Of a stretch of 64,000 bases of DNA, positions 46,801 to 58,509 are shown piece by piece. Origin of the DNA: Microbacterium lushaniae (GTDB taxonomy: Bacteria > Actinomycetota > Actinomycetes > Actinomycetales > Microbacteriaceae); NCBI RefSeq assembly GCF_008727775.1, contig NZ_CP044232.1:186001-250000 (forward strand). The letters run 5' to 3'. Each line of letters starts with the position of its first letter. The stretch's first letter is position 1. A model generated the notes under the pieces. That model searched no databases. It saw nothing but the letters and a program-made list of their open reading frames with translations, and had not been told where the DNA came from. A program made the translations under genes and the position numbers.

Positions 46801-48897
46801 ATGCCCTCGACTGCGTTCTCCTCGCTCGACGAGTACATCGCCCTCCCGCGCATCGAAGCGCTCGCGCTGTCGCCCGACGGTCGTCGCGTCGTCCTCACGG
46901 TCGCAACGCTCACGAAAGACCGCACGTCGTACGAGCGGTCGCTGTGGGAGGTTCCGGCCAAGGGTGCCGGCGCCCCGCGGCGCCTGACCCGTTCGGCCAA
47001 GGGCGAATCCGGCGCGGTGTTCACCGCAGACGGCGATGTGCTGTTCGTCAGTGCTCGACCGGACGCCGACGCCGAGGACGACGACGAGTCGGGTCAGCTG
47101 TGGCTGCTCCCCACCGGTGGCGGCGAGGCGCGGCCGGTCACGCGCCTGGCGGGCGGCGTGGGCGGGATCGCGGCGGTGGCCGAGGCATCCCCTCGCCTGG
47201 TCCTCTCGGCCGACCTGATGCCTTCGGCCCAGACGCTCGAAGACGACGCGCGGCTGCGGGCCGACCGCAAGAAGCGGAAGGTCTCCGCGATCCTGCACGA
47301 CACCTACCCGGTGCGAGTCTGGGACCACGACCTCGGCCCGGCCCAGCCGCACCTGCTCGCGCTCGACCTCGGTGCCCTGGCCGACACCATCGCCGCGGTG
47401 GCCGAAGAAGGTGCCTCGGAGGCGGACGACGAGGCGCAGGCGGATGCGACGACGCCGTACCCGTCCACGCTGCCGCGGCCGCGCGACCTGACGCCGAACC
47501 CCGGTCGCACGGCCGACATCGCCGGCGCCGCCCTCACCCCCGACGGCGCGACGCTCGTGGCATCCCTGCAGATTCCCGAGGGGCGGGACTCCCGCCACAT
47601 CCTCGCGGCGATCGACACGGCCACCGGTGCCCGCACGACCCTCTTCGACGAGCGCAGCACCTCCTTCGAGATGCCCGCCATCAGCCACGACGGCACGACG
47701 CTCGCCTTCGTGCGCTCGGGCTTCGGTTCACCCGAGGGGCCGGCAGACCAGGAGCTGTGGGTGTCGGACATCGACGGCGCGAACCCGCGACGACTGGCAG
47801 CGGGGTGGGATCGGTGGCCGAGCGCCCTCACCTTCGACGCCGACGACTCCGCCCTCATCGTGACCGCCGACCAGGACGGGCGCGGACCGATCTTCCGCGT
47901 CCCCCTCGAGGGTGACCCGGTCGTGCAGCTCACTTCCGACGAGTTCACGTACACGCACGTGCACGTCGACCGCGCCACCGGCGATCTGGTCGCGCTGCGC
48001 TCGTCGTGGATGGCGCCGCCGCATGCCGTCCGCGTCGGCCGTGACGGGGCCGTGACGGCGCTGACCTCACCGGTGGCCCTCCCCGACGCCGCCGGGACCA
48101 TGACCGAGATCGAGGCGACGGCCGAGGACGGCGCCCGGGTGCGCGGATGGCTGCTCCTGCCGGAGGGCGCCTCGGCGGAGCATCCCGCCCCGCTCCTGCT
48201 GTGGATCCACGGCGGACCGCTCAACAGCTGGAACGCCTGGAGCTGGCGGTGGAACCCGCAGCTGGCCCTCGCGCGCGGCTACGCGGTGCTGCTGCCCGAC
48301 CCCGCCCTCTCCACCGGGTACGGGCTGGACTTCATCGCGCGGGGGTGGAACAGCTGGGGCGGCAAGCCCTACACCGACCTCCTGTCGATCACCGACGCCG
48401 TCGTCGCCCGCGACGACATCGACCAGACCCGCACGGCGGCGATGGGCGGATCGTTCGGCGGCTACATGGCCAACTGGGTCGCCGGGCACACCGACCGGTT
48501 CCGCGCGATCGTCACGCACGCGAGCCTGTGGGCGCTCGACCAGTTCGCCGGCACGACCGACTCGTCGGCGTACTGGCAGCGGATCTTCACGCCAGAGGCG
48601 ATGGTGGAGAACTCCCCGCACCGGTTCGTCCGCGACATCCGCACGCCCGTGTTGGTGATCCACGGCGACCGCGACTACCGCGTGCCGATCGGGGAGAGCC
48701 TGCGGCTGTGGTCGGAGCTGAACGAGCACTTCGGAGCCGATGACGGGTCGCTCGTGCACCGGTTCCTGTACTTCCCCGACGAGAACCACTGGGTGCTCAA
48801 GCCCCAGCACGCCGTGGTCTGGTACGAGACGGTGTTCGCCTTCCTCGCTCAGCACGTGCTCGGAGAGTCCGTGGAGGTGCCGGATGTCCTCGGCTGA
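46801..48897 (+). CDS. S9 family peptidase (prolyl oligopeptidase / acylaminoacyl peptidase-like)
   Basis: A 698-residue cytoplasmic serine peptidase. Residues about 10-420 form a beta-propeller (WD40-like PD40 repeats such as RRLTRSAKGESGAVF, ALTFDADDSALIV). The C-terminal alpha/beta-hydrolase domain has the oxyanion HGGPLNSWNAW, nucleophile GGSFGGYMANWV (near residue 556), Asp in HGDRDYRVPIGE and His in ENHWVLKP. It cleaves short peptides; a signal peptide is absent. Overlaps the next gene by 14 bp. The long in-frame extension to 46678 runs through the DUF4287 gene and is not real. Confidence 0.94.
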   Translation: MPSTAFSSLDEYIALPRIEALALSPDGRRVVLTVATLTKDRTSYERSLWEVPAKGAGAPRRLTRSAKGESGAVFTADGDVLFVSARPDADAEDDDESGQLWLLPTGGGEARPVTRLAGGVGGIAAVAEASPRLVLSADLMPSAQTLEDDARLRADRKKRKVSAILHDTYPVRVWDHDLGPAQPHLLALDLGALADTIAAVAEEGASEADDEAQADATTPYPSTLPRPRDLTPNPGRTADIAGAALTPDGATLVASLQIPEGRDSRHILAAIDTATGARTTLFDERSTSFEMPAISHDGTTLAFVRSGFGSPEGPADQELWVSDIDGANPRRLAAGWDRWPSALTFDADDSALIVTADQDGRGPIFRVPLEGDPVVQLTSDEFTYTHVHVDRATGDLVALRSSWMAPPHAVRVGRDGAVTALTSPVALPDAAGTMTEIEATAEDGARVRGWLLLPEGASAEHPAPLLLWIHGGPLNSWNAWSWRWNPQLALARGYAVLLPDPALSTGYGLDFIARGWNSWGGKPYTDLLSITDAVVARDDIDQTRTAAMGGSFGGYMANWVAGHTDRFRAIVTHASLWALDQFAGTTDSSAYWQRIFTPEAMVENSPHRFVRDIRTPVLVIHGDRDYRVPIGESLRLWSELNEHFGADDGSLVHRFLYFPDENHWVLKPQHAVVWYETVFAFLAQHVLGESVEVPDVLG

Positions 48898-49729
48898 CCC
48901 GCGCCTGCTGGACACTCCGCCGCGCGAAGGCCTCGACATCCGCCTGGTCGCCGTCGACATGGACGGCACGCTGCTCGATGGCGAGGGCCGGCTGCCGCCG
49001 GGATTCGACGCGGTGCTCGAGCACATGCTCGCCCGCGGGATCGTCTTCACGCCGGCCAGCGGCCGGCAGTACGCCACGCTCCGCCGCGAATTCGGCGCAT
49101 CCGCCGACGACATGGCGTTCATCGCCGAGAACGGCACCATCGTGATGCGCGGCGGCGTCGAGCTGTCGAGCGACGTCATCGACTCCGCGTTCGTGCAGCG
49201 CGTGCTGGCGCGGTTGCGCGAGGTCGCGACGCGGCACGACATCGGCGTGGTCGTCTGCGGCAAGCGGTCGGCCTACATCGAGCGGCGCGACCGGGCGTTC
49301 GTGGCCGAGGCCGAGCGGTACTACGCCGAGCTCGTCCAGGTCGACGACCTCACCAGGGTTTACGACGACGTGCTGAAGGTCGCGGTGTACGCCTTCGACA
49401 GCGCGGAGGACTCCGTCTACCCCGAGCTCGGCGACATCGCCTCCAGTCACCAGGTCGTCGTCTCGGGCCGGCACTGGGTCGATGTGATGAACAGTGACGT
49501 CAACAAGGGCACCGCGCTGCGCCGTCTGCAGGAGACGCTCGGGATCACGCGGGAGCAGACCGTCGCGTTCGGCGACTACCTCAACGATCTCGAGCTGCTG
49601 GATGCGGCGGCCTGGTCATACGCGATGGCCAACGCGCACGACGACGTCGCCGCCCGAGCCCGCTTCCGCGCGCCCTCGAACACCGAGTACGGCGTGGTCA
49701 CCGTCCTGAGGGAGCTGCTCGGCGGCTGA
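48884..49729 (+). CDS. Cof-type HAD-superfamily hydrolase
   Basis: A 281-residue sugar-phosphate or flavin/PLP phosphatase of HAD class IIB. Motif I VDMDGTLLDGEG (nucleophile Asp near residue 26), motif II TPASGRQY, motif III Lys in DVNKGTALRRL, motif IV GDYLNDLELL. A cap domain lies between motifs II and III. The ATG at 48884 is within the end of the S9 gene and has GGAGG 6-7 bases upstream, so the two are probably co-translated. Physiological substrate not predictable. Confidence 0.94.
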   Translation: MSSADPRLLDTPPREGLDIRLVAVDMDGTLLDGEGRLPPGFDAVLEHMLARGIVFTPASGRQYATLRREFGASADDMAFIAENGTIVMRGGVELSSDVIDSAFVQRVLARLREVATRHDIGVVVCGKRSAYIERRDRAFVAEAERYYAELVQVDDLTRVYDDVLKVAVYAFDSAEDSVYPELGDIASSHQVVVSGRHWVDVMNSDVNKGTALRRLQETLGITREQTVAFGDYLNDLELLDAAAWSYAMANAHDDVAARARFRAPSNTEYGVVTVLRELLGG

Positions 49730-49774
49730 CACGGAGCTGTCCGCGCAGCCCTGCCCCCGCGCGGTGCCTCGCGC

Positions 49775-49780
49775 TACCCT
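49775..49780 (+). promoter_or_regulatory. -10 hexamer for a leaderless DUF2255 transcript
   Basis: TACCCT, 5 bp (CGGGC), ATG 49786. Confidence 0.35.
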
Positions 49781-49785
49781 CGGGC

Positions 49786-50196
49786 ATGGCCTTCGACGAT
49801 GTGGTTCGTGTCCTCGACGAGACCCGCGTGGTCGCCGTCATCACCCGCCGTGCCGACGGCACCCGTGTCGCCACCCCCATCTGGGCGGTGGTGGTAGACG
49901 GTGTGCCCTACCTCCGGTCGGCCTACGGGCCGTCGTCGTGGTGGTACCGGCACGTGCTCGCCGGGCGCGAGGTGGAGTTCGCGCTGGGAGACGGCAGGAT
50001 CGCCGAGCGTGACCGGCAGGCCGCGCTCGACCTGCCGGCCGAGCCCGTGGCGGTCGAGTCCGTGGCCGCGGACGACCCGGTGCAGCGCGACATCGACCGC
50101 GCGCTCGAGGCGAAGTACGCGGCCGAGCCCGAGTCGGTCGCCGCGATGAAGAGCCCCGAAGCCGTGGGCTGCACCCTGCGGGTCGTCGCCCCCTGA
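49786..50196 (+). CDS. DUF2255 / pyridoxamine-oxidase-like split-barrel protein
   Basis: A 136-residue protein with a flavin-reductase/PNPOx-like split barrel: VVRVLDETRVVAVITRRADG, TRVATPIWAVVVDGVPYLRS and the WWYRHVLAGREVEFALGDG segment are the DUF2255 blocks. This family resembles deazaflavin- or FMN-binding split barrels, so a small oxidoreductase role is plausible but unproven. It is a single gene, followed by the 900-bp repeat-filled gap. Confidence 0.85.
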   Translation: MAFDDVVRVLDETRVVAVITRRADGTRVATPIWAVVVDGVPYLRSAYGPSSWWYRHVLAGREVEFALGDGRIAERDRQAALDLPAEPVAVESVAADDPVQRDIDRALEAKYAAEPESVAAMKSPEAVGCTLRVVAP

Positions 50197-50464
50197 CGAG
50201 GCGGTCCGACGCCTGCGGGCGCCGACAGTGCGCGCTCCTCAGGTAGCTCTCTGCCTTCCTGTCCTGCCCTCTCCTGTCCCGTCTCCCGGGCGTCCGACCC
50301 TCCGTCCTGACCGTCTCCGTCTGCCCGCCGCCGGCCTGCCGGTCCCGTCTGCGCGCCACCGTCCGCGGGTGCGCGTCCTGCCGGTCCCCGTCGTGCGGTC
50401 CCCGTCGTGCCGGTGCCCGTCCGGCCCCTCCGTCTGACCGTCCCGGCCCACCGTCCCCTTCACG

Positions 50465-50546
50465 CCCGAACTCCTCAAATGCGGGGCCGCCCGCGCGGTT
50501 TTGGCCGGTTCCGGCCCGATCTGCGCGCCGTTTGGAGGAGTTCGGG
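50465..50546. repeat. Palindromic element, family E, unit 1 (82 bp)
   Basis: Outer arms CCCGAACTCCTCAAA (50465-50479) and TTTGGAGGAGTTCGGG (50531-50546), pairing with one bulge. Core GGCCGCC-GCGCGGTT-TTCCGGCCCGATC is shared with units 2 and 3. Confidence 0.8.
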
Positions 50547-50688
50547 ATGGTGACGAGGCGTGAGGTAGCCGGGCGGGCGCCGTCGGAGGGATGTCCTCGA
50601 GCCGCTCGAGGGTCCGGACGAGGTCCCGACTCCGCCCGTCTTCCTGCCCCTCCGTCTGGACTTCCCCGTCCCGCCCTTCCCCGCCCTG

Positions 50689-50770
50689 CCCAAACTCCTC
50701 AAACTCCAGGCCGCCGGGGCGGTTCTGCGCGGGTTTCGGCCCGATCCGCCCCGAGTTTGAGGAGTTCGGG
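50689..50770. repeat. Palindromic element, family E, unit 2 (82 bp)
   Basis: Outer arms CCCAAACTCCTCAAACTC and GAGTTTGAGGAGTTCGGG (50753-50770), 17 of 18 paired. Core GGCCGCCGGGGCGGTT then TTTCGGCCCGATC. Confidence 0.8.
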
Positions 50771-50928
50771 ATGGTGAAGAGGGTGAGGTCGCCGGTGGGG
50801 CGCCGGCGGCTGGGCGGGGAGCCCCCCGACGGTGCGGGCGAGTTGCCCTTCCGTCTCCCGCTCCTTCCCGTCCCCGTCTCGCCTTCCCCCCTCCCGCCCG
50901 CCCCTCCGTCTCGCCTTACCCCGTCCTG

Positions 50929-50997
50929 CCCGAACTCCTCTAACACGAGGCCGCCCGCGCCGTTCTGCCGATTTCCGGCCCGATCTGAGGAGTTCGG
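50929..50997. repeat. Palindromic element, family E, unit 3 (69 bp, 13 bp shorter)
   Basis: Outer arms CCCGAACTCCTC (50929-50940) and GAGGAGTTCGGG (50986-50997 region) are perfect. The core GGCCGCCCGCGCCGTT and TTTCCGGCCCGATC is kept while the inner right spacer found in units 1 and 2 is missing. Confidence 0.75.
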
Positions 50998-51101
50998 GGC
51001 GGCGACGGGGAGTGCGGTCCCGGGGCGGGCGCCGGCGCCCGGGGATCGTCCGACATCGAGGCCACCGGGGCGGCGGCGTCGCGCTGCTGCATCGAGCGCC
51101 G

Positions 51102-51977
51102 TCAGACGCCGGCGAGCCGCTCGACGATCCGGGCCAGTTCGCCGGTGCCGTCCGCCAGCGACTCCAGGATGTCGAAGTGGTTGTTCTCCCTCACCACCAC
51201 CTCGACTGGATGTCCGCTGGAGGACACCATGGCGGCGAAATCGATTGACTGGCGCTCGAACTCCGGCGTTTCATCGTTGCCGTACGCGACGACGAGGGAA
51301 GGGACCACCGGTGGCGTGCTGAGGACACTGAGGCTATCTGCTGCGCCTTCGTCCAGGTGTAGGTCGGTGTTGAGGAACGTGTGGACGAGTGGGCGCAGGT
51401 CGAACACGCCGCTGACCGGGAGGGCGCCGGCGAACGGTTCCCGAGGAAGCCCGTAGTCCCCGACCCAGTCGGCTTGCAGCAGTGTGGCGACGGCGTGTCC
51501 TCCTGCCGAGTGGCCCGAGATGACGATGCGGTCGACATCGACCCCGTAATCGCCCGCATGGGCGAAGAAGTGCGCGTAGGCCGCGCGGTGCTGACGGACG
51601 ATCTCGGCGATGCTCACACGTGGGCAGAGTGCGTAGTTCTCCACCGCCACGACGAAGCCGCGCGCGGCCAGGCCGCGGGCGACGTAGCTCCAGACCTTGC
51701 TCGTGGTGGCCTTCCAGTAGCCGCCGTGGATGAAGAACAGCGCGGGACGCGGGCCGGGAGCATCTGCGATTGGGAGGAACACGTCGTACGTCTCGTCGAC
51801 GGTCGGTCCGTACCGCACGTCCAGCAGACCGCGGGCCTCGTCGCGGTACGCGGCGCTGCGGGCGACGAAGTCGCCGGCGTACGCGCCGAAGTCGGGCACC
51901 GTCGCCTCGATGTCGTAGGCGCGGTTCAACTCGTCGACGCTCGTGAAGTCGCGGTACAGCGGTGTGATTCCGGTCAT
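51102..51977 (-). CDS. Alpha/beta hydrolase (arylformamidase/BD-FAE-like esterase)
   Basis: A 291-residue hydrolase. The oxyanion motif HGGYW (residues 84-88) and nucleophile GHSAGG (Ser157) are those of kynurenine formamidases and related carboxylesterases; the acid is likely in VAYGNDETPEF and the His in ENNHFDILE. Last gene of the minus-strand monooxygenase operon; the ATG at 51977 has AAGGAGG 5 bases upstream and lies 28 bp after the MBL gene. It may hydrolyse an N-formyl, amide or ester intermediate made by the upstream enzymes. The context, not the sequence alone, suggests a catabolic role. Confidence 0.88.
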   Translation of the reverse strand: MTGITPLYRDFTSVDELNRAYDIEATVPDFGAYAGDFVARSAAYRDEARGLLDVRYGPTVDETYDVFLPIADAPGPRPALFFIHGGYWKATTSKVWSYVARGLAARGFVVAVENYALCPRVSIAEIVRQHRAAYAHFFAHAGDYGVDVDRIVISGHSAGGHAVATLLQADWVGDYGLPREPFAGALPVSGVFDLRPLVHTFLNTDLHLDEGAADSLSVLSTPPVVPSLVVAYGNDETPEFERQSIDFAAMVSSSGHPVEVVVRENNHFDILESLADGTGELARIVERLAGV

Positions 51978-52005
51978 TGCTTCCTCCTTGACGGGATGGG
52001 ACGCA

Positions 52006-52932
52006 TCAGCGCAGGAGCTGCGGAGCCCCGTGCGGGCGGCGCGACGCATCGTCTTCGCGAAGATTCAGCTGCGCGATCGAGTTGCCGCTCGGGGAGAGCC
52101 AGGAGCTGTGCCGCAACGCCACCTCAGGGTCGTGGCCCGGGATTATTCTGCTCGTCTCGCCCTGCAGTTCCTTCTGGAGTGTCTGGTACAGGCTGATCAG
52201 GTTGAAGGTGTTGCCCTGCACGTAGCCGGGCGCCCACATGCCTTCGATGTTGGAGTACCAGTACACGGTGTCTCCGGCGGCGACGAACGGCCCATTGCGC
52301 GTCTGGATCTTGAACCACTGGGATCCGAAGGTATGCGAATCCCTTGCCAGGCGGGCGGTCACGCCGGGAAGGAGTTCCTCGTCTCCGTGAACGAAACGGA
52401 TCCGTCCGTCGGCGATGCCTTGGGCGGCTTTGGCGAGATCGAGCGGATCGAAGGAGGAAAAGATCCATGCCTTCTGTTCTTCGGTGGTCATGCGGTTGGC
52501 GATGTCCACAGCCGAGGACCATCCCGTGAACTCCTCGTACTGCACGTAGAGCTGCGCGTTGGGGAACGCCTCGAAGTTGCCGACGTGGTCGAAGTGCATG
52601 TGCGAGACGAGGATGACGTCGACGTCTTCGGGGTTGATCCCGACCTGCCCGAGCACCTCGGTCGGGCTCTCCCAGTTCGAGAATGCGTAGCGGTCGAGCC
52701 AGTAGTCGTTGCGGAATCCGCAGTCCACCAGTGCGACGTGCTGCTTGCCTCCGACTGCACCGCCGATGAGCAGGGTGTACAGCATCGGGATACGGATGAT
52801 GCCCCTGTTGCTGAACAGGCCGGACCCGCCGAAGAAGTCGTGCGGCATGTCCGCGTGGCAGTACTCGAGAGACCAGATCGAGTAGTCGGTGTCGGCTGCT
52901 GCCGAGAACTTCGTCGAACCAGTGATGTTCAT
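52006..52932 (-). CDS. MBL-fold metallohydrolase (lactonase family)
   Basis: A 308-residue metallo-beta-lactamase fold enzyme. The dinuclear metal motif SHMHFDH is complete (His111, His113, Asp115, His116); the later ligands are the Asp in AAGDTVYWYSN and the His in IIPGHDPEV. Similarity of layout to N-acyl-homoserine lactonases (AttM/AiiA type) points to lactone ring opening, but the operon setting suggests a catabolic lactone rather than quorum quenching. No signal peptide. It sits between RidA and the alpha/beta hydrolase. Confidence 0.9.
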   Translation of the reverse strand: MNITGSTKFSAAADTDYSIWSLEYCHADMPHDFFGGSGLFSNRGIIRIPMLYTLLIGGAVGGKQHVALVDCGFRNDYWLDRYAFSNWESPTEVLGQVGINPEDVDVILVSHMHFDHVGNFEAFPNAQLYVQYEEFTGWSSAVDIANRMTTEEQKAWIFSSFDPLDLAKAAQGIADGRIRFVHGDEELLPGVTARLARDSHTFGSQWFKIQTRNGPFVAAGDTVYWYSNIEGMWAPGYVQGNTFNLISLYQTLQKELQGETSRIIPGHDPEVALRHSSWLSPSGNSIAQLNLREDDASRRPHGAPQLLR

Positions 52933-53045
52933 GACACTCCTTCGTGTCGTCGTCCGTCCGGCGACGGGCGTCGCGCGGGCGTAGTGGATGTCCCGGCGCC
53001 GAGGCCGCCGGGACCTGCGGCGTCACGCCTCTGGGCCGAGCGGCG

Positions 53046-53432
53046 TCAGACGGCGGCGATCGCGTCGATCTCGATCGTCGCGCCGTTGTACAGCGAGTAG
53101 ACGCCGATGACGGTGCTGGCCGAGGGCTCCGGGGCCTGCACGATGCGATCGCGGGTGCGGCGCCAGGTGGCCAGCTTCTCCTGGTCCAGGTGCGTGATGT
53201 ACACGTTGACGCGCACCACATCCTCGTACGTCGCCCCCGCCGCCGTCAGCGCACGCTCGAGCTCCCCGTATGTCAGCTCGATCGCCCGCTCGAAGCTCTC
53301 CGGCACCGAGCCGTCCGCTTCGAATCCGACCTGGCCGGAGATGAAGACGAGGTCGCCGCTGGTCACGCGCGTGCTGTCGGAGATCCCGGGCACGGTGGGG
53401 GAGGCGGTGCGGCTGATGCGGTCGTTCGTCAT
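53046..53432 (-). CDS. RidA (YjgF/YER057c/UK114) family protein
   Basis: A 128-residue trimeric enamine/imine deaminase-type protein. Family blocks: DLVFISGQVGFEADG, ALTAAGATYEDVVRVNVYIT and STVIGVYSLYNGATIEIDAIA. The usual catalytic Arg in the RxxVEI/C region is replaced here (LYNGATIEI), so it is not a canonical RidA and may act on a pathway-specific reactive imine, as RutC-like members do. It lies 43 bp after the flavin reductase gene. Confidence 0.9.
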   Translation of the reverse strand: MTNDRISRTASPTVPGISDSTRVTSGDLVFISGQVGFEADGSVPESFERAIELTYGELERALTAAGATYEDVVRVNVYITHLDQEKLATWRRTRDRIVQAPEPSASTVIGVYSLYNGATIEIDAIAAV

Positions 53433-53475
53433 GAATTCTCCTTGGAGGGGTTCGGTCGGGATGCGGCGTAGCGGG

Positions 53476-54048
53476 TCAATCGCCCCGCCCGTAGACGGCG
53501 TAGAACGGCACGACCGTGCGGGGGAGGGCGGCGTGCTCGTTCAGCACGAACCATTTGCGGTCATGGTAGACGAGCGGGTGGGGCGACTTCTCCGGTGTTT
53601 CCGCACGCGGTTTCGCCTCGATGGCCTCGACGACCACGAGCGTCGAACCGTGCACGTTCAGGCGTTCGATGACGCGGCCGCGCAGCCACGCGTTCGCACG
53701 CGGGTAGTACGGCTCGCCCGTGGGCAGGCGGCCCCACTCCACGTCGTCGCCGAAGCGCTCGACGCCGCTGCGGGCCCCGAGCTTGGCCAGTTCGACCTGA
53801 TCCGAGGCCAGCAGGTGCACCACGACCGTGTCGGCCCGGCGGATCGTGGGTGTGCTGGAGGAGCGGCCGGATGCGGAGAACACCAGAGTCGGCGGATCGA
53901 TCGCCACGGATGCGACCGAGCTCACCGTCATCGCCACCGGGCCGTCGCCGGCGTCGGCGGTGATGATGGCGACGCCTGCGGGGTGGTGGCGGAACGCGTG
54001 CGTGAAGTCGCCCGCGGAGATCTGCGGTTCGGAGACGGTGGAATTCAT
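53476..54048 (-). CDS. Flavin reductase (two-component monooxygenase reductase)
   Basis: A 190-residue FMN-binding split-barrel protein of the HpaC/RutF family: FTHAFRHHPAGVAIITAD, AMTVSSVASVAIDPPTLVFS and DTVVVHLLASDQVELAKLGA are the conserved blocks. It would use NAD(P)H to make reduced flavin for the acyl-CoA-dehydrogenase-type monooxygenase encoded 32 bp upstream. ATG 54048 with GAGGAG in front; longer in-frame starts would overlap the monooxygenase gene. Confidence 0.93.
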   Translation of the reverse strand: MNSTVSEPQISAGDFTHAFRHHPAGVAIITADAGDGPVAMTVSSVASVAIDPPTLVFSASGRSSSTPTIRRADTVVVHLLASDQVELAKLGARSGVERFGDDVEWGRLPTGEPYYPRANAWLRGRVIERLNVHGSTLVVVEAIEAKPRAETPEKSPHPLVYHDRKWFVLNEHAALPRTVVPFYAVYGRGD

Positions 54049-54080
54049 CGTGAGCTCCTCTCGGAGGCGTTGCCCCATGC

Positions 54081-55283
54081 TCAGACGATCGGCAGGACGA
54101 ATCGGGCGTCGTCTTCGCGGCCGAACAGCACCTTGCCGTATGCCTCGAATCCGCTGGCGGCGAGGGTGTGGCCGTGGCGGCTGGCGGTGGCCTGGTCGCG
54201 CCAGACGCGCTGGAGCGGGGCGGATTCGGCGAAGCCGGCCGAGCCGTGCGCGGTCATCAGGTCGTTGATCATCGTGGTGATGGTCTCGACCACCCACCCG
54301 GCCTTGGCACGCATCTCGATCCGCTCGGCGTACGGCGCGTAGGCGTCGCTGCCCGCACCCTCGTAGATGCGGTCGGCCAGTTCGCGGGCGACGAGTTCGG
54401 CCGCGTCGAGTTGCACGGCAGCCTTGGCGATGGCGCTCTGGAACACCGCCGAGTCGGCCTGCTTCTCGTAGCCGGTGTAGGCGATCGCCTTGCTCTCGGC
54501 CTTGGAGGTGACGTAGTCCAGCGCGGCGCGACCCATCCCCAGGTGTGGACCGATGAGCTTCATGAACAGGGACGGGACGAAGACGGTGCGGTAGGTCTGC
54601 TCGTCGTTACCGCCCAGATATCCGCCTTCGACCGCTGCCGTGAGCGGGAAGACCCGATGTGCGGGGACGAAGACGTCCTCGGCGATCTGCATGACGCTCG
54701 CGGTGGACTTCATGCCCGCGACGAACCAGTTGTCCTCCATCGACAGCTCGGAGGTGGGGATGAGCGCGAGCCCGGCGTCCACGACCTCGCCGGCGTCGTT
54801 CTTCAGCGGGATCCCCAGCAGCGACCAGTCGGCGTGCAGGCTCCCCGTCCCGTATCCCCACTTGCCCGTCACGCGGTATCCGCCGTCGACGCGCTCGGAG
54901 TCGGAGGTGGTGGCCAGGACGATGGAGATGAACGAGTCCGCGCCCTTGTCCGTTCCCCACACGTCCTGCTGTGCCTGCTCGTCCATGAGCGAGACCACCC
55001 ATGCGCCGGAGTCGAGGATGCCGTGCACCCACGCGATGCTGCCGTCGCCGCGCCCGATGGCGCGGGCCACCGCGTGGCACTCGGCCGTGTTCGCGCCGAG
55101 TCCGCCCACGTTCGTCGGAGCGGAGATGCTGAACGCGCCCGTCGCCGCCACGGCGTCGAACGCCTCTTGCGGGATGCGGCGGTCGCGGTCTGCGTCGCGC
55201 CCGCCCGCGGTGAGGGTGGGACGCAGTTCGTCGATCCGGTCGACGATCGTGCTGATCTCGGGACGGAGTGCCGTGGCTGCCAT
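54081..55283 (-). CDS. Flavin-dependent monooxygenase of the acyl-CoA dehydrogenase fold (HsaA/DszC-like)
   Basis: A 400-residue group D flavoprotein hydroxylase. It has the acyl-CoA dehydrogenase architecture (N-terminal helices with FDAVAATGAFSISAPTNVGG, middle beta domain GYRVTGKWGYGTGSLHADW, C-terminal four-helix bundle) but lacks the catalytic Glu block of true dehydrogenases and ends with QRVWRDQATASRHGHTL, as in oxygenase components. With the neighbouring flavin reductase it forms a two-component system that oxygenates an aromatic or N-heterocyclic substrate. ATG 55283 with TTGGAG upstream. The promoter and a clear inverted repeat lie in the 91 bp before it. Confidence 0.92.
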   Translation of the reverse strand: MAATALRPEISTIVDRIDELRPTLTAGGRDADRDRRIPQEAFDAVAATGAFSISAPTNVGGLGANTAECHAVARAIGRGDGSIAWVHGILDSGAWVVSLMDEQAQQDVWGTDKGADSFISIVLATTSDSERVDGGYRVTGKWGYGTGSLHADWSLLGIPLKNDAGEVVDAGLALIPTSELSMEDNWFVAGMKSTASVMQIAEDVFVPAHRVFPLTAAVEGGYLGGNDEQTYRTVFVPSLFMKLIGPHLGMGRAALDYVTSKAESKAIAYTGYEKQADSAVFQSAIAKAAVQLDAAELVARELADRIYEGAGSDAYAPYAERIEMRAKAGWVVETITTMINDLMTAHGSAGFAESAPLQRVWRDQATASRHGHTLAASGFEAYGKVLFGREDDARFVLPIV

Positions 55284-55320
55284 GAGTGACTCCAAGTGTC
55301 GACGCCTAAGTGTTAAACAG

Positions 55321-55349
55321 AGCGTGACACTGGGCATTCACTATGTCAA
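55321..55349 (-). promoter_or_regulatory. Candidate promoter of the monooxygenase operon
   Basis: On the minus strand a perfect -35 TTGACA (55349-55344) is followed by 17 bp and CACGCT (55326-55321). It lies inside the inverted repeat below, consistent with repression. Confidence 0.4.
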
Positions 55350-55358
55350 TGCACAGTG
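55328..55358. promoter_or_regulatory. Inverted-repeat operator of the monooxygenase operon
   Basis: CACTGGGCATT (55328-55338) and AATGCACAGTG (55348-55358) are inverted with 10 of 11 matches and a 9-bp spacer. A second overlapping pair TTCACT/AGTGAA (55337-55342, 55355-55360) is present. It covers the -35 element. The adjacent XRE-cupin protein is the likely ligand. Confidence 0.6.
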
Positions 55359-55374
55359 AACAGCAAAATGACCG

Positions 55375-56088
55375 TCAATCGAGATGGTCGAACCGGCGCA
55401 GCACGTTCAGCGGGTTGGCCGGCGGATGCGGACGCCAGCGCGCGCCGTCGGCACCCGGCTCCGCCTCCAGCCCGGCGCCGTTGCGGTCCATCACGAACCA
55501 GACCCCGCGGGCCGGCGCGGAGCTGCGGTTGAGGTACAGGTGCGGCCGGGCGGACTCGAACTGAAGAGAGTCACCGGGTCCGAGGGTGTACTCGTCGAAC
55601 TCGAGCCGCAGGATCAGCTCGCCCTCCAGAATGAACGCCTGCTCGAATCCGGAGTGCCGGGTGAGCTTGCCGGTGGGAGAACTGGAAGCGCCCGCCTCGT
55701 AGGTGACGAGGAGGGAGTCGGTGCGGCCATCCGGCCGGCGGGCGAGCCGCTCCCAGCGGACGCCGTCCTCCATCTCGATCATCGGATTCTCGCTCGCGCG
55801 CTGCACTTCCGGGGTGAGCGGAGGTGTGGCGGCGAAGCTCGGGGCACCTGCGGCGGCGAAGCTCGGGGCACCCGCAGCGCCATCGATCCCGAGCAGCTCG
55901 TCGGCCGAGACTTCCAGCAGGCCGGCGAGGGAGTACAGGGTCGCCACCGACGGGCGGCTCTTGCCCGTTTCGACCTGGGAGATGAGGCTGGGGGAGACCC
56001 CCAGCTGCTGCGCCACCTTGCGCAGGCTCACGCCGCGCGCTTGCCGGATGCGGCGGATGCGCTCGCCGATGTTCTCTGCAGTGGACAT
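55375..56088 (-). CDS. XRE-family regulator with C-terminal cupin sensor domain
   Basis: A 237-residue regulator. HTH_3 domain at residues 8-62: IGERIRRIRQARGVSLRKVA, QLGVSPSLISQVETGKSRPS. An Ala-rich linker holds a perfect 8-residue duplication (APSFAAAG/APSFAAT) caused by a 24-bp tandem repeat at 55831-55872. The cupin_2 domain (about 120-215) has GFEQAFILEGELILRLEFDEY and LGPGDSLQFESARPHLYLN. Members sense small molecules and control adjacent catabolic genes. The stop is 91 bp before the monooxygenase gene; the operator in that gap and the same orientation suggest a six-gene regulon. The ATG at 56088 has GGGAGAG upstream. Confidence 0.92.
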   Translation of the reverse strand: MSTAENIGERIRRIRQARGVSLRKVAQQLGVSPSLISQVETGKSRPSVATLYSLAGLLEVSADELLGIDGAAGAPSFAAAGAPSFAATPPLTPEVQRASENPMIEMEDGVRWERLARRPDGRTDSLLVTYEAGASSSPTGKLTRHSGFEQAFILEGELILRLEFDEYTLGPGDSLQFESARPHLYLNRSSAPARGVWFVMDRNGAGLEAEPGADGARWRPHPPANPLNVLRRFDHLD

Positions 56089-56184
56089 TCGCTCTCCCGC
56101 TGGCCCCTCCTGCACCCTACCGCGCCCGCGCACGTATGTGTAGAAATACTTAACACTGCGGGTCTACAACAGAGTCCCGACGAG

Positions 56185-56499
56185 TCAGGCGCGGGCGTCC
56201 GCCGGCACGTGGATGCGCCCCCGCAGGAACGGCAGCGCCGGTGCACGGTAGACGAGCGACGGCGCATCCGCGGGATCCAGCGAGAACTCCGCCTGGCCGA
56301 ACCGCCACACCCGGTTGAACAGGTACACCCCGACGGTCACCGGCCGGTCGGCCGGAACCTGCCACGTGCCCACGCCCCACTGCGCCGGCTGTCCGCGTCC
56401 GGCGATGACGAGTGTCGGCCGGACGCCCCCGTAGAGGGCGAACCATGGCTTGCGCAGCGTCAGCTGAATGCGACGGGTCGTCTCATCTTCATGACTCAC
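56185..56499 (-). CDS. Hypothetical protein
   Basis: A 104-residue, beta-rich soluble protein without recognised family. Visible segments are RRIQLTLRKPWFALYGG, VPADRPVTVGVYLFNRVWRF and APALPFLRGRIHVPADARA. No signal peptide or metal motif. The GTG at 56499 has AGGAG about 11 bases upstream; the TTG start at 56556 would add 19 unlikely residues. It lies between the cupin regulator and the LysE gene on the same strand but with gaps of about 96-100 bp, so it is probably a separate unit. Confidence 0.6.
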   Translation of the reverse strand: MSHEDETTRRIQLTLRKPWFALYGGVRPTLVIAGRGQPAQWGVGTWQVPADRPVTVGVYLFNRVWRFGQAEFSLDPADAPSLVYRAPALPFLRGRIHVPADARA

Positions 56500-56601
56500 G
56501 TGTGCATCGACTCCTGTCGCGTTCTCGGCGTCCCGGGGTGATGACGCCACCAGCAAACATAAGCGGTGCGTTCGATCGTCCAGAGGAGGGCGCTCCTGCG
56601 A

Positions 56602-57267
56602 CTATGCCGGCGAAGCGGGCTCCGCCACCTCGAGGGCGAGCAGGACCGCGACGAGGCCGAGAAGGCCGCCCGTGACGCGTCGCTGCCACTCCGTCCACAC
56701 CGGCCGCGCGGCCAGGAAGGCCGCGATCGATCCGGCCGCCAGGATGATCGCGGCGTTGACGGTCAGGCTGACGGCGATCTGGATGCCGCCGAGGGTGAAG
56801 CCCTGCAGGGCGGGGCTGCCGGCGGCGGGGTCGATGAACTGGGGGATGAGCGCGAGGTACATCACCGCGGCCTTGGGGTTGAGCAGGTTCGTGACCAGGC
56901 CCATGCGGAACAGCTTCGCCGCCGAGTCCCTGCGAAGCCCGCGCGCCTCGAACACCCCGCGTCCGCTCGGCCTCAGCGCCTGCCATGCGAGGTAGGCGAG
57001 GTACACGACCCCGGCCGCCTTCAGGCCGATGAACAGCCACGGCACGGCGACGAACACCACGGCGAGTCCGGCGCCTGCCATCGTCATGTAGACGAGGAAG
57101 CCGGTGCCGGTGCCGGCGAGGGACACCAGGCCGGCAGCGCGCCCCTGGCTGATGCTCCGGGAGACGAGGTAGACCATGTTGGGGCCGGGAGTGAGGACCA
57201 TCAGCAGGGCGGCCAGGGCCATGCCGCCCGCCGCGGCGAGCGAGACTCCGGTTCCGAAGACGGTCAT
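56602..57267 (-). CDS. LysE/RhtB family amino-acid exporter
   Basis: A 221-residue membrane protein with about six hydrophobic helices. The N-terminal ALLMVLTPGPNMVYLVSRSISQGRAAG (shown in part: LTPGPNMVYLVSRS) is the signature of the LysE/RhtB translocator family, and LFRMGLVTNLLNPKAAVMYL is the second conserved block. It exports amino acids or related metabolites such as homoserine, threonine or lysine. ATG 57267 is chosen because upstream in-frame residues are hydrophilic and unrelated. It diverges from the CGNR gene with 66 bp between. Confidence 0.92.
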   Translation of the reverse strand: MTVFGTGVSLAAAGGMALAALLMVLTPGPNMVYLVSRSISQGRAAGLVSLAGTGTGFLVYMTMAGAGLAVVFVAVPWLFIGLKAAGVVYLAYLAWQALRPSGRGVFEARGLRRDSAAKLFRMGLVTNLLNPKAAVMYLALIPQFIDPAAGSPALQGFTLGGIQIAVSLTVNAAIILAAGSIAAFLAARPVWTEWQRRVTGGLLGLVAVLLALEVAEPASPA

Positions 57268-57333
57268 GGGCGGCGCACGGGAAGTGCGGATGGGGTCTGG
57301 TCGGTCATCCCGCCAGCGTGCTGTAATGCCCTT

Positions 57334-57879
57334 ATGCATCTCAACCCTTACGGCGAGTATGCCGTGCTGATGGCCGCCTCCCTGGCGAACGACTGGCCGG
57401 AGACTCGCGAGGGCATCGTCGCCCGCACGCGCGACTTCGGCATGACGATGGAGTTCCGCGCCGGCGCCGACGACCGGGCCGCGTCGCGGGCCGTGCTGGA
57501 CGAATGGCTGCGCGTCGTCGACGAGCGCGACCCGCAGACGCGCGCGTCGCTTCTGAACGCGGCCCTCGCCGCAGCATCCGCCTACCCCCGACTGACCGAC
57601 CACGACGGCGAGGGGTGGCACCTGCACTACCGGGACACCGATCAGACCCTGCCGCACGTGCTGGCCGCCGTCATCAGCGTCGGCACCGCCCTGCACCTGA
57701 CCACGCGGGGAATGCACCGACTCGGGCGCTGCGGCGCGGGCGATGACGCTGGCGACGGATGCCGCAACGTCGTCGTGGATGTGACCCGCAACGGCAGGCA
57801 GCGCTACTGCTCGGTGCGCTGCGCCAATCGCTCCGCCGTCCGGCGACACCGGGCGCGCGGTCGGATCACCGCATCGTGA
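57334..57879 (+). CDS. CGNR zinc-finger transcriptional regulator
   Basis: A 181-residue protein. The N-terminal 130 residues match the ABATE-like stress-sensor domain that precedes CGNR fingers (YGEYAVLMAASLANDWPETR, WLRVVDERDPQTRASLLNAA). The C-terminal finger has CGAGDDAGDGCRNVVVD followed by RQRYCSVRCANRSAVRRHRA, giving the four Cys ligands and the CxNR-type motif. It likely regulates the divergent LysE exporter. ATG 57334 stands close after a TGTAAT hexamer (57322-57327). Confidence 0.9.
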   Translation: MHLNPYGEYAVLMAASLANDWPETREGIVARTRDFGMTMEFRAGADDRAASRAVLDEWLRVVDERDPQTRASLLNAALAAASAYPRLTDHDGEGWHLHYRDTDQTLPHVLAAVISVGTALHLTTRGMHRLGRCGAGDDAGDGCRNVVVDVTRNGRQRYCSVRCANRSAVRRHRARGRITAS

Positions 57880-57904
57880 CGTTGTGTGACCCCGCATCGT
57901 GACG
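57869..57904 (+). repeat. 23-bp tandem duplication at the CGNR stop / OsmC upstream region
   Basis: CCGCATCGTGACG occurs at 57869-57881 and 57892-57904, followed each time by a similar 10-mer (TTGTGTGACC, CCGCGTTACC). It overlaps the CGNR stop codon and ends about 40 bp before the OsmC -10 hexamer. Confidence 0.55.
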
Positions 57905-57944
57905 CCGCGTTACCGGCGGCGCGCGCCGGGTGCAGCGGGCGACC

Positions 57945-57950
57945 TACGCT
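57945..57950 (+). promoter_or_regulatory. -10 hexamer for a leaderless OsmC-family transcript
   Basis: TACGCT, 7 bp (CGCGGCC), ATG 57958. Confidence 0.45.
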
Positions 57951-57957
57951 CGCGGCC

Positions 57958-58509
57958 ATGACACTTGCCGACACCACCGTTGTTCCCGAGTCCACCGCCG
58001 CCGACCGCGCCATCCGGCTCGCCGAAGCCGGCGCGGCGTGGGGCGAACGGATCGCCGCCGATCCCCGCAGCGCTCAGCTGACCTACCGCGTCAGCGGGGA
58101 GGGCTCCGGATCCGTCGCGACCGTCGTCCGCGCCGGCAAGCACCGGTTCATCGTCGACGAGCCGGCCGCCCTGGCCGGTGACGACGTCGGCGCGAGCCCC
58201 GTCGAGTACGCGCTGGGCGCGCTGATCTCCTGCCAGGTCGTCGTGTACCGCCTCTACGCGCAGGCTCTCGGCATCCAGGTCGACGACATCCGGGTCGAGG
58301 CGGAGGGTGACCTCGACGCGCGGAAGCTCTTCGGCATCGACGAGTCGGTGCGCCCCGGGTTCACCGGCGTGCGGCTGCACGTGACGATCGACGGGCCCGA
58401 GACCGAACAGCGCTACGCCGAACTCAAGGCCGCGGTGGACGAGCACTGCCCCGTGCTCGACCTCTTCGCCAACCCCACCCCGATCGCGGTCGAGGTGTCG
58501 AAGGCCTGA
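57958..58509 (+). CDS. OsmC family peroxiredoxin-like protein
   Basis: A 183-residue OsmC/Ohr-fold protein that normally reduces organic hydroperoxides. The block GASPVEYALGALISCQVVVYR contains the first active-site Cys, and the second lies in DEHCPVLDLFANPTPIAVEV, giving the Cys pair with typical spacing. A 25-residue N-terminal extension precedes the fold. Start at 57958 because of the TACGCT hexamer and the shortness of the fold; the longer frame from 57886 crosses the tandem repeat. Single gene. Confidence 0.93.
   Translation: MTLADTTVVPESTAADRAIRLAEAGAAWGERIAADPRSAQLTYRVSGEGSGSVATVVRAGKHRFIVDEPAALAGDDVGASPVEYALGALISCQVVVYRLYAQALGIQVDDIRVEAEGDLDARKLFGIDESVRPGFTGVRLHVTIDGPETEQRYAELKAAVDEHCPVLDLFANPTPIAVEVSKA

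Follow-up and report, generated by a model that had tools for sequence, protein, structure and literature searches.

A compact bxd-type operon in Microbacterium lushaniae with a predicted role in benzoxazolinone breakdown

In a 64,000-nucleotide stretch of the Microbacterium lushaniae genome (contig NZ_CP044232.1, positions 186,001 to 250,000; here called the window) we analysed an operon of six genes, read on the minus strand from position 56088 to 51102, which encode in this order an XRE-family regulator with a C-terminal cupin domain (XRE-cupin), a two-component flavin monooxygenase (MOX), a flavin reductase (FR), a Rid-family protein, a lactonase of the metallo-beta-lactamase (MBL) fold and an alpha/beta hydrolase. 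The six-gene set is a real, conserved catabolic module and not a random adjacency, and the operon is a new bxd-type variant, not a wholly new pathway. We put at about two in three the probability that the six genes represent a compact bxd system with its own regulator, acting on benzoxazolinone and with its pathway split over three loci of the genome. The bxd cluster described for Microbacterium LMB2 comprises 15 genes, and its lactonase BxdA opens 6-methoxy-2-benzoxazolinone (MBOA; Thoenen et al., 2024, PMC11297187), the major benzoxazinoid in the maize rhizosphere, which has been argued to select for MBOA-metabolising root bacteria (PMC11297187). BxdA turns MBOA into 2-amino-7-methoxyphenoxazin-3-one (AMPO) in vitro, with 2-amino-5-methoxyphenol as the proposed intermediate, and a Sphingobium mutant without its three BxdA homologues (58.9-64.9% similarity) forms no AMPO (PMC11297187; PMC12483121).

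The layout given in the initial annotation, six same-strand genes with gaps of 28-113 bp, was reproduced in both coordinates and gaps: in operon order the genes are separated by 91, 32, 43, 113 and 28 bp, the 32 bp lying between the MOX and FR genes. The Pfam assignments given below with each of the six proteins all lie above the gathering score, no NCBIfam model reached its cut-off for any of them, and an Rfam scan of positions 48000-58000 gave no match.

The MBL gene (52932-52006, minus strand; 308 aa; Lactamase_B) encodes an apparent BxdA orthologue. The full HxHxDH motif noticed earlier belongs to a complete metal site: in an alignment of 50 sequences, query included, chosen among 120 of 217 matches, H111, H113, D115, H116, H200 and D221 do not vary, and conservation at H267 is at least 90%. 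The closest solved relative is PDB 8x78 (about 64%, by way of P0051). In the FastTree tree the window MBL groups with that of genome G691 (support 0.99; G and L numbers are our labels for compared genomes and loci), within the actinobacterial clade of these lactonases. It is 78% identical to the G691 protein and 72% to gene A of genomes G705 and G707, those two being 68% identical to each other.

In G705 and G707 the cluster genes, which are our own open reading frame calls and in some cases named by homology alone, run MBL, Rid, MOX, aldehyde dehydrogenase (ALDH), E2 and E1 of a 2-oxoacid dehydrogenase, vicinal oxygen chelate (VOC) protein, GntR, MOX, FR, Rid, M24, LacI, NAD_binding_2 and F420_oxidored-like. 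This order agrees with the published cluster in the lactonase in first place (A), the ALDH in fourth (D), the VOC protein in seventh (G) and the NAD(P)-dependent oxidoreductase in 14th (N), and likewise in having exactly two regulators among fifteen genes (H, GntR; M, LacI); the far end was placed by the published count of 15, so that the count is no independent match. We take both to be bxd clusters. In G691, 14 of the 15 bxd families are represented, one Rid gene answering to both B and K. Compared with I, J and K of the G705/G707 cluster, the window MOX, FR and Rid show respectively 64% (63-64% for MOX across the two genomes), 67% and 79% identity, and the operon thus holds four of the 15 bxd genes (A, I, J and K) and not the contiguous A-O set. 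The initial annotation considered the pathway possibly undescribed. This is not supported, four of the six being apparent orthologues of bxd genes published in 2024, although the bxd paper gives an activity for bxdA only, states the roles of the remaining genes as open and does not use the terms monooxygenase, flavin reductase or RidA in its main text (PMC11297187). Among the literature matches listed, judged by titles and opening lines of abstracts and with subscription papers and preprints aside, we found none that gives bxdI, bxdJ or bxdK a function or joins bxd with the sulfonamide (sad) genes considered below.

Recurrence of the module was assessed at 18 actinobacterial MBL loci, in stretches of 16-33 kb compared with a fixed reference set; several of the loci come from near relatives and are not independent. 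A bxdI-type MOX (at least 60% identity) is found at 16 of the 18, being absent from G710 and from G406, which has it on another contig. A Rid gene is present at 15 (not G708b, G711 or G710), an FR gene at 14 (not G603, G706, G712 or G406) and an XRE-cupin gene at 14 (not G691, G708a, G705 or G707), and MBL, MOX, FR, Rid and XRE occur all together at seven. The initial annotation had allowed that the genes might be only randomly adjacent in relatives, which these counts contradict; the synteny of all six families that it proposed to look for is not supported, the alpha/beta hydrolase being present at few of the loci. A close MBL (E<=1e-60) was found in four of 398 genomes from the family, own genome included, and a MOX of at least 73% identity in five (any match at 1e-60, seven); all four close-MBL genomes are among the five, with the genes adjacent (hypergeometric probability 4.9e-9, relatedness ignored). 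Twelve of the 365 genomes in the genus of G405 match the MBL at 1e-30; ten have close matches at 69-95% identity, G708 having two, and the remaining two genomes reach 34-37%. Among 245 genomes drawn from the family of the Arthrobacter relative the sole MBL match is G406 itself. One of the 18 loci, in a Herbiconiux metagenome-assembled genome (locus L003, G400:C36:18438-19202), has a damaged or misassembled MBL relative: nothing in it corresponds to residues 87-121, the part with the HxHxDH motif, and the MOX and Rid match over their length. The cause is either gene decay or an assembly error.

The alpha/beta hydrolase (51977-51102, minus strand; 291 aa; BD-FAE and Abhydrolase_3) was found at 91% identity in G766, 45% in G323, 43% in L007 and 35% in G406, with no match in the remaining compared stretches. 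It thus reaches at least 45% at three of the 18 MBL loci (window, G766, G323), with one more at 35%, and is, judged by this distribution, a lineage-specific addition. It carries HGGxW and GxSxGG motifs (HGGYW and GHSAGG), which are those of kynurenine formamidase. Its best PDB matches are 9n8r (134.1 bits) and 2pbl (107.8 bits); kynurenine formamidase 4e11 comes third at 64.8 bits, and no formamidase model is among its NCBIfam matches. The kynurenine analogy drawn earlier is not supported by these matches.

The MOX (55283-54081, minus strand; 400 aa; Acyl-CoA_dh_2 and _N) has the acyl-CoA dehydrogenase (ACAD) fold and the FR (54048-53476, minus strand; 190 aa) is its Flavin_Reduct partner, the combination that defines a two-component group D flavin monooxygenase. 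The group D assignment made earlier is based on XiaF, HsaA and HPAH-C2 being among the best PDB matches, the indole oxygenase XiaF being the best. The closest characterised relative that we found, closer than XiaF, is SadB, the 4-aminophenol monooxygenase known from sulfonamide degraders, here that of Paenarthrobacter sp. R1 (WP_036299419.1, PMC6868719; the protein at L074:10001-11200 in the sad locus), at 46% identity, and the putative SadA of the same plasmid is 34% identical. In the tree the window MOX, bxdI and others form the sister clade of SadB; the window enzyme is by this placement a sister of SadB and not a SadB. It is the sole full-length enzyme of its family in its own genome, and no SadA was found.

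Expression of SadB in E. coli led to removal of the 4-aminophenol that SadA produces, most likely by oxidation to 1,2,4-trihydroxybenzene, and the sad cluster is listed as also containing Cro/CI and yjgF genes (PMC5693940). In Paenarthrobacter sp. R1 the sad region includes an XRE gene, a Rid gene, an M24 gene and an NAD(P)-dependent oxidoreductase gene, the XRE protein being 53% identical to the window XRE-cupin. Paenarthrobacter ureafaciens SD-1 has a SadB-like gene (73% to SadB) together with E2, E1, VOC and Rid genes; we take it for the plasmid-borne type II SadB because of its 73% identity, which matches a passage in the ISME J. Two plasmids of sulfonamide degraders encode Rid proteins with 68% identity to the window Rid. 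The MOX of 'Ca. Leucobacter sulfamidivorax' (L005), 76% identical to that of the window, was considered as SadB1 and rejected, the gene at C1:36853 being only 47% identical to SadB; the best SadB matches of that organism are at C1:51985 (73%) and C1:631006 (72%). The 3.8 Mb genome of 'Ca. L. sulfamidivorax' GP (G402) contains 20 SadB matches at E<=1e-20; one of them is of bxdI type and lies some 14 kb away from the best match.

The Rid protein (53432-53046, minus strand; 128 aa; Ribonuc_L-PSP) lacks the carboxylate-binding Arg, as had been noted earlier, the position being set by alignment with 3k0t. Imine hydrolysis by RidA depends on this Arg; Rid proteins without it are predicted not to hydrolyse amino-acid imines, Rid7 did not do so, and about 10% of RidA proteins have Ser at this place (PMC4433059). 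The 'imine clearance' first ascribed to the window Rid is therefore not supported. The loss of a carboxylate-binding residue would be explained if the substrate were a quinone imine, which is our conjecture.

Further bxd-type genes lie at two other loci of the genome. The first (C1:3039601-3045312) encodes a GntR regulator (69% to bxdH), a VOC protein (C1:3040305-3040820, between the GntR and E1/E2 genes; 65% to bxdG), E1 (84%), E2 (61%) and, after these, a short-chain dehydrogenase/reductase (SDR) for which the sulfonamide plasmid of Paenarthrobacter sp. R1 has a counterpart of 74% identity. The second (C1:3197766-3200919) holds a second XRE-cupin gene (58% to the window regulator), an M24 hydrolase gene at C1:3198686 (52% to bxdL, 87% to the M24 of G711) and a neighbouring bxdN-like NAD-dependent dehydrogenase gene (50%). 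The relatives of E, F, G, H, L and N at these two loci are thus 50-84% identical, and with the four in the operon bring the genome to ten of the 15 bxd families at three loci, B, D, M and O not having been sought genome-wide. In the genus of G405 the VOC gene (E<=1e-35) is present in 59 of the 365 genomes, among them all ten with a close MBL (6e-9, relatedness ignored); as 49 VOC genomes are without a close MBL, the VOC protein must also serve something else. Genes of the bxd type can therefore be scattered over three loci of one genome, where synteny searches alone would miss them.

According to the route that we propose, the BxdA-type MBL would hydrolyse the cyclic carbamate of a benzoxazolinone (MBOA, 2-benzoxazolinone (BOA) or a close relative), and the resulting carbamic acid would lose CO2 to give a 2-aminophenol. 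The SadB-like group D oxygenase, supplied with reduced flavin by its own reductase, is predicted to hydroxylate the 2-aminophenol; with 2-amino-5-methoxyphenol the carbon attacked may be the one para to the amine. Hydroxylation would drain the aminophenol ahead of its dimerisation to aminophenoxazinones, AMPO for example. The Arg-less Rid may act on a carboxylate-free nitrogen intermediate, for example a quinone imine, and the products would pass to the VOC, E1/E2 and SDR proteins of the first distant locus and to the M24 protein and NAD-dependent dehydrogenase of the second. The XRE-cupin may control the operon, and the alpha/beta hydrolase probably takes an acyl or ester group off a substrate variant. 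Of the N-containing aromatic or lactam/lactone proposed in the initial annotation, the most likely form is an N-containing aromatic with a lactone-like ring, a cyclic carbamate; the proposed order of steps probably needs to be changed, because orthology with BxdA most likely places the MBL first, before oxygenation.

Several observations weigh against a benzoxazolinone pathway of this kind. The site in SadB that corresponds to A236 of XiaF has been named (PMC6868719), and the presumed position, which is Trp in both SadB sequences, is Phe in the window MOX. The Arg at the carboxylate-binding place is absent from all 21 aligned Rid sequences, that of the window included. Gene A of G705 was judged to be BxdA by cluster architecture and not by a deposited BxdA sequence, and both co-occurrence statistics (MBL with MOX, MBL with VOC) leave relatedness aside. 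MOX-FR-Rid is also present in genomes without the MBL (G205, G402, G403 and G405). Within the M. lushaniae genome, a search with the MOX returned the window gene and one 67-residue match, so that no second full-length enzyme of this family, and hence no bxdC, was found. A hydroxyquinol-type intradiol dioxygenase was not seen there either; PF00775 matches only a pair that, from their translations, we take to be of pca type.

The last two absences, together with the presence in the operon of just A, I, J and K of the 15 bxd genes, are what one would expect if the system served detoxification only, opening benzoxazolinones and disposing of the toxic aminophenol without growth on it. We regard this as possible but doubtful: the relatives of E-H, L and N elsewhere in the genome, at 50-84% identity, mean that a lower pathway may exist. 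It is rather unlikely that the same families serve another substrate altogether, the MBL opening some other cyclic carbamate, lactone or lactam of xenobiotic or plant origin and an aminophenol-type module following. The window MBL is, at 72%, not near-identical to the putative BxdA, the XRE-cupin and the alpha/beta hydrolase are absent from the G705/G707 clusters, and the MBL relatives on Novosphingobium and Burkholderia plasmid records have none of the other five module genes within 24.9 kb. However, BxdA homologues keep their MBOA function at 58.9-64.9% similarity (PMC11297187), and the tree joins the window MBL to that of G691, a genome in whose cluster all but one of the 15 bxd families are present.

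The initial annotation had instead proposed oxygenation of an indole or N-heterocycle followed by imine clearance by Rid, lactone opening and formamide hydrolysis. XiaF as best PDB match of the MOX and the third-ranked match of the hydrolase to 4e11 (64.8 bits) are in keeping with that scheme, yet SadB is closer to the MOX than XiaF is, orthology with BxdA puts ring opening first, the Rid is without its Arg and the hydrolase is no conserved member of the module; taken together these make the scheme improbable. Least credible of all is quorum quenching, with the MBL as an N-acyl homoserine lactone (AHL) lactonase and incidental neighbours. The MBL does have weak matches to AHL lactonases in the PDB, but with curated NCBIfam cut-offs of 360-475 the AiiA, AttM, AhlS and AidB models reach 36.8-53.9 bits, and YtnP, with a cut-off of 425, reaches 25.4, values on which we rejected an AHL lactonase identity, and the neighbours are conserved across MBL loci.

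If the compact bxd-type reading is right, the operon offers a testable function for part of the bxd cluster beyond bxdA, and the link of bxdI, bxdJ and bxdK with SadB provides a concrete, testable second step for the benzoxazinoid route; it also suggests a cassette common to a plant-compound route and an antibiotic-degradation route. MOX-FR-Rid is not tied to benzoxazolinones, since it occurs in genomes that have no MBL. In G205 and the genomes of loci L004-L008 the MOX is present and the MBL has no match genome-wide, and Rid lies beside MOX at five of the seven MOX loci without a nearby MBL (G205, L005, L006, L008 and L009); at L004 and L007 the available sequence ends on one side no more than 200 bp from the last module gene. 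Two members of one genus (g12; L034 of G205 and L032 of G397) have the same locus, with MOX-FR-Rid in both and the MBL in one only. We would tentatively venture that MOX, FR, Arg-less Rid and XRE-cupin form a general aminophenol cassette of Microbacteriaceae and Micrococcaceae behind interchangeable openers. In that event BxdA would serve as opener of grass-root benzoxazolinones, SadA of sulfonamide drugs, and alpha/beta hydrolases or amidases of other anilides. The Rid would hydrolyse quinone imines that bear no carboxylate, an activity new for Rid proteins, and bxdI-K would supply the second step that is missing from benzoxazinoid catabolism.

The regulator gene (56088-55375, minus strand; 237 aa; HTH_3 and Cupin_2) is accompanied by two weak operator candidates. 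A perfect inverted repeat, TTCACT-N12-AGTGAA, lies at 55337-55360 in the XRE-MOX gap over a TTGACA hexamer, as a candidate operator and promoter of the MOX operon. It is the sole copy in the window at up to one mismatch (five shuffled windows averaged 0.4), and it occurs in four of 24 stretches, always beside the MOX: in the window and, as one-mismatch copies, in G766, L009 and the sad locus L074, with none in the other 20. The sequence AGTGTTAA has two copies in the 64 kb, both adjoining the regulator gene, at 55309-55316 (plus strand) and upstream of the gene at 56150-56157 (minus strand). It recurs before the MOX of G766, shortened (GTGTTA) at the place of the second copy in G766, and in full upstream of the G398 regulator; found at these places only in the window, G766 and G398, it is not general.

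Upstream of the operon and on the same strand is a LysE-type exporter gene (56602-57231), and between the two lies a 123-aa open reading frame (56185-56556) with no Pfam or NCBIfam match. On the other side, at 50465-50998, are palindrome-ended elements of the form GAACTCCTC...GAGGAGTTC, which occur at 48 places in the genome, many in clusters of two to four; the backward control pattern gave 0 matches. Of the 48 elements, 43 measure exactly 76 nt end to end (60-84 allowed) and their interiors are very variable, a constant length with a free interior that is odd for an ordinary repetitive extragenic palindromic (REP) element.

The Rut pathway, to which the initial annotation had likened the operon, shares with it by family name alone an oxygenase, a flavin reductase, a Rid protein and an alpha/beta hydrolase. 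RutA belongs to an oxygenase class of another superfamily than the ACAD/SadB kind found here, and the RutF model, whose cut-off is 254.75 bits, gives 51.4; on this ground, and with the formamidase match only third, we rejected the Rut and kynurenine pathways as identities for the operon. The 2-aminophenol meta-cleavage pathway would have in common with the window a 2-aminophenol intermediate, and also has a Rid-family protein, the 2-aminomuconate deaminase AmnE. AmnE keeps a conserved Arg117 (PMC6742747), whereas the window Rid is without it, and an AmnE-like identity was rejected for this reason. With sad the operon shares a SadB-like two-component oxygenase (46%), a flavin reductase, an XRE regulator and a Rid protein, and the genome shares with that of Paenarthrobacter sp. 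R1 an M24 gene and an NAD-dependent oxidoreductase gene, which in R1 lie near sad; it differs in the absence of SadA, in a predicted hydrolytic opening as first step in place of the ipso-hydroxylation of sad, and in Phe for the Trp of SadB. From bxd the window differs in having only four of the 15 genes in the operon and its pathway genes at three loci, an additional alpha/beta hydrolase, no bxdC found in the genome and an XRE-cupin gene in the operon, which the examined stretches of G705, G707 and G691 do not contain. It nevertheless shares with bxd the BxdA-type MBL and the bxdI/J/K-type MOX, reductase and Rid, and elsewhere in the genome relatives of E, F, G, H, L and N.

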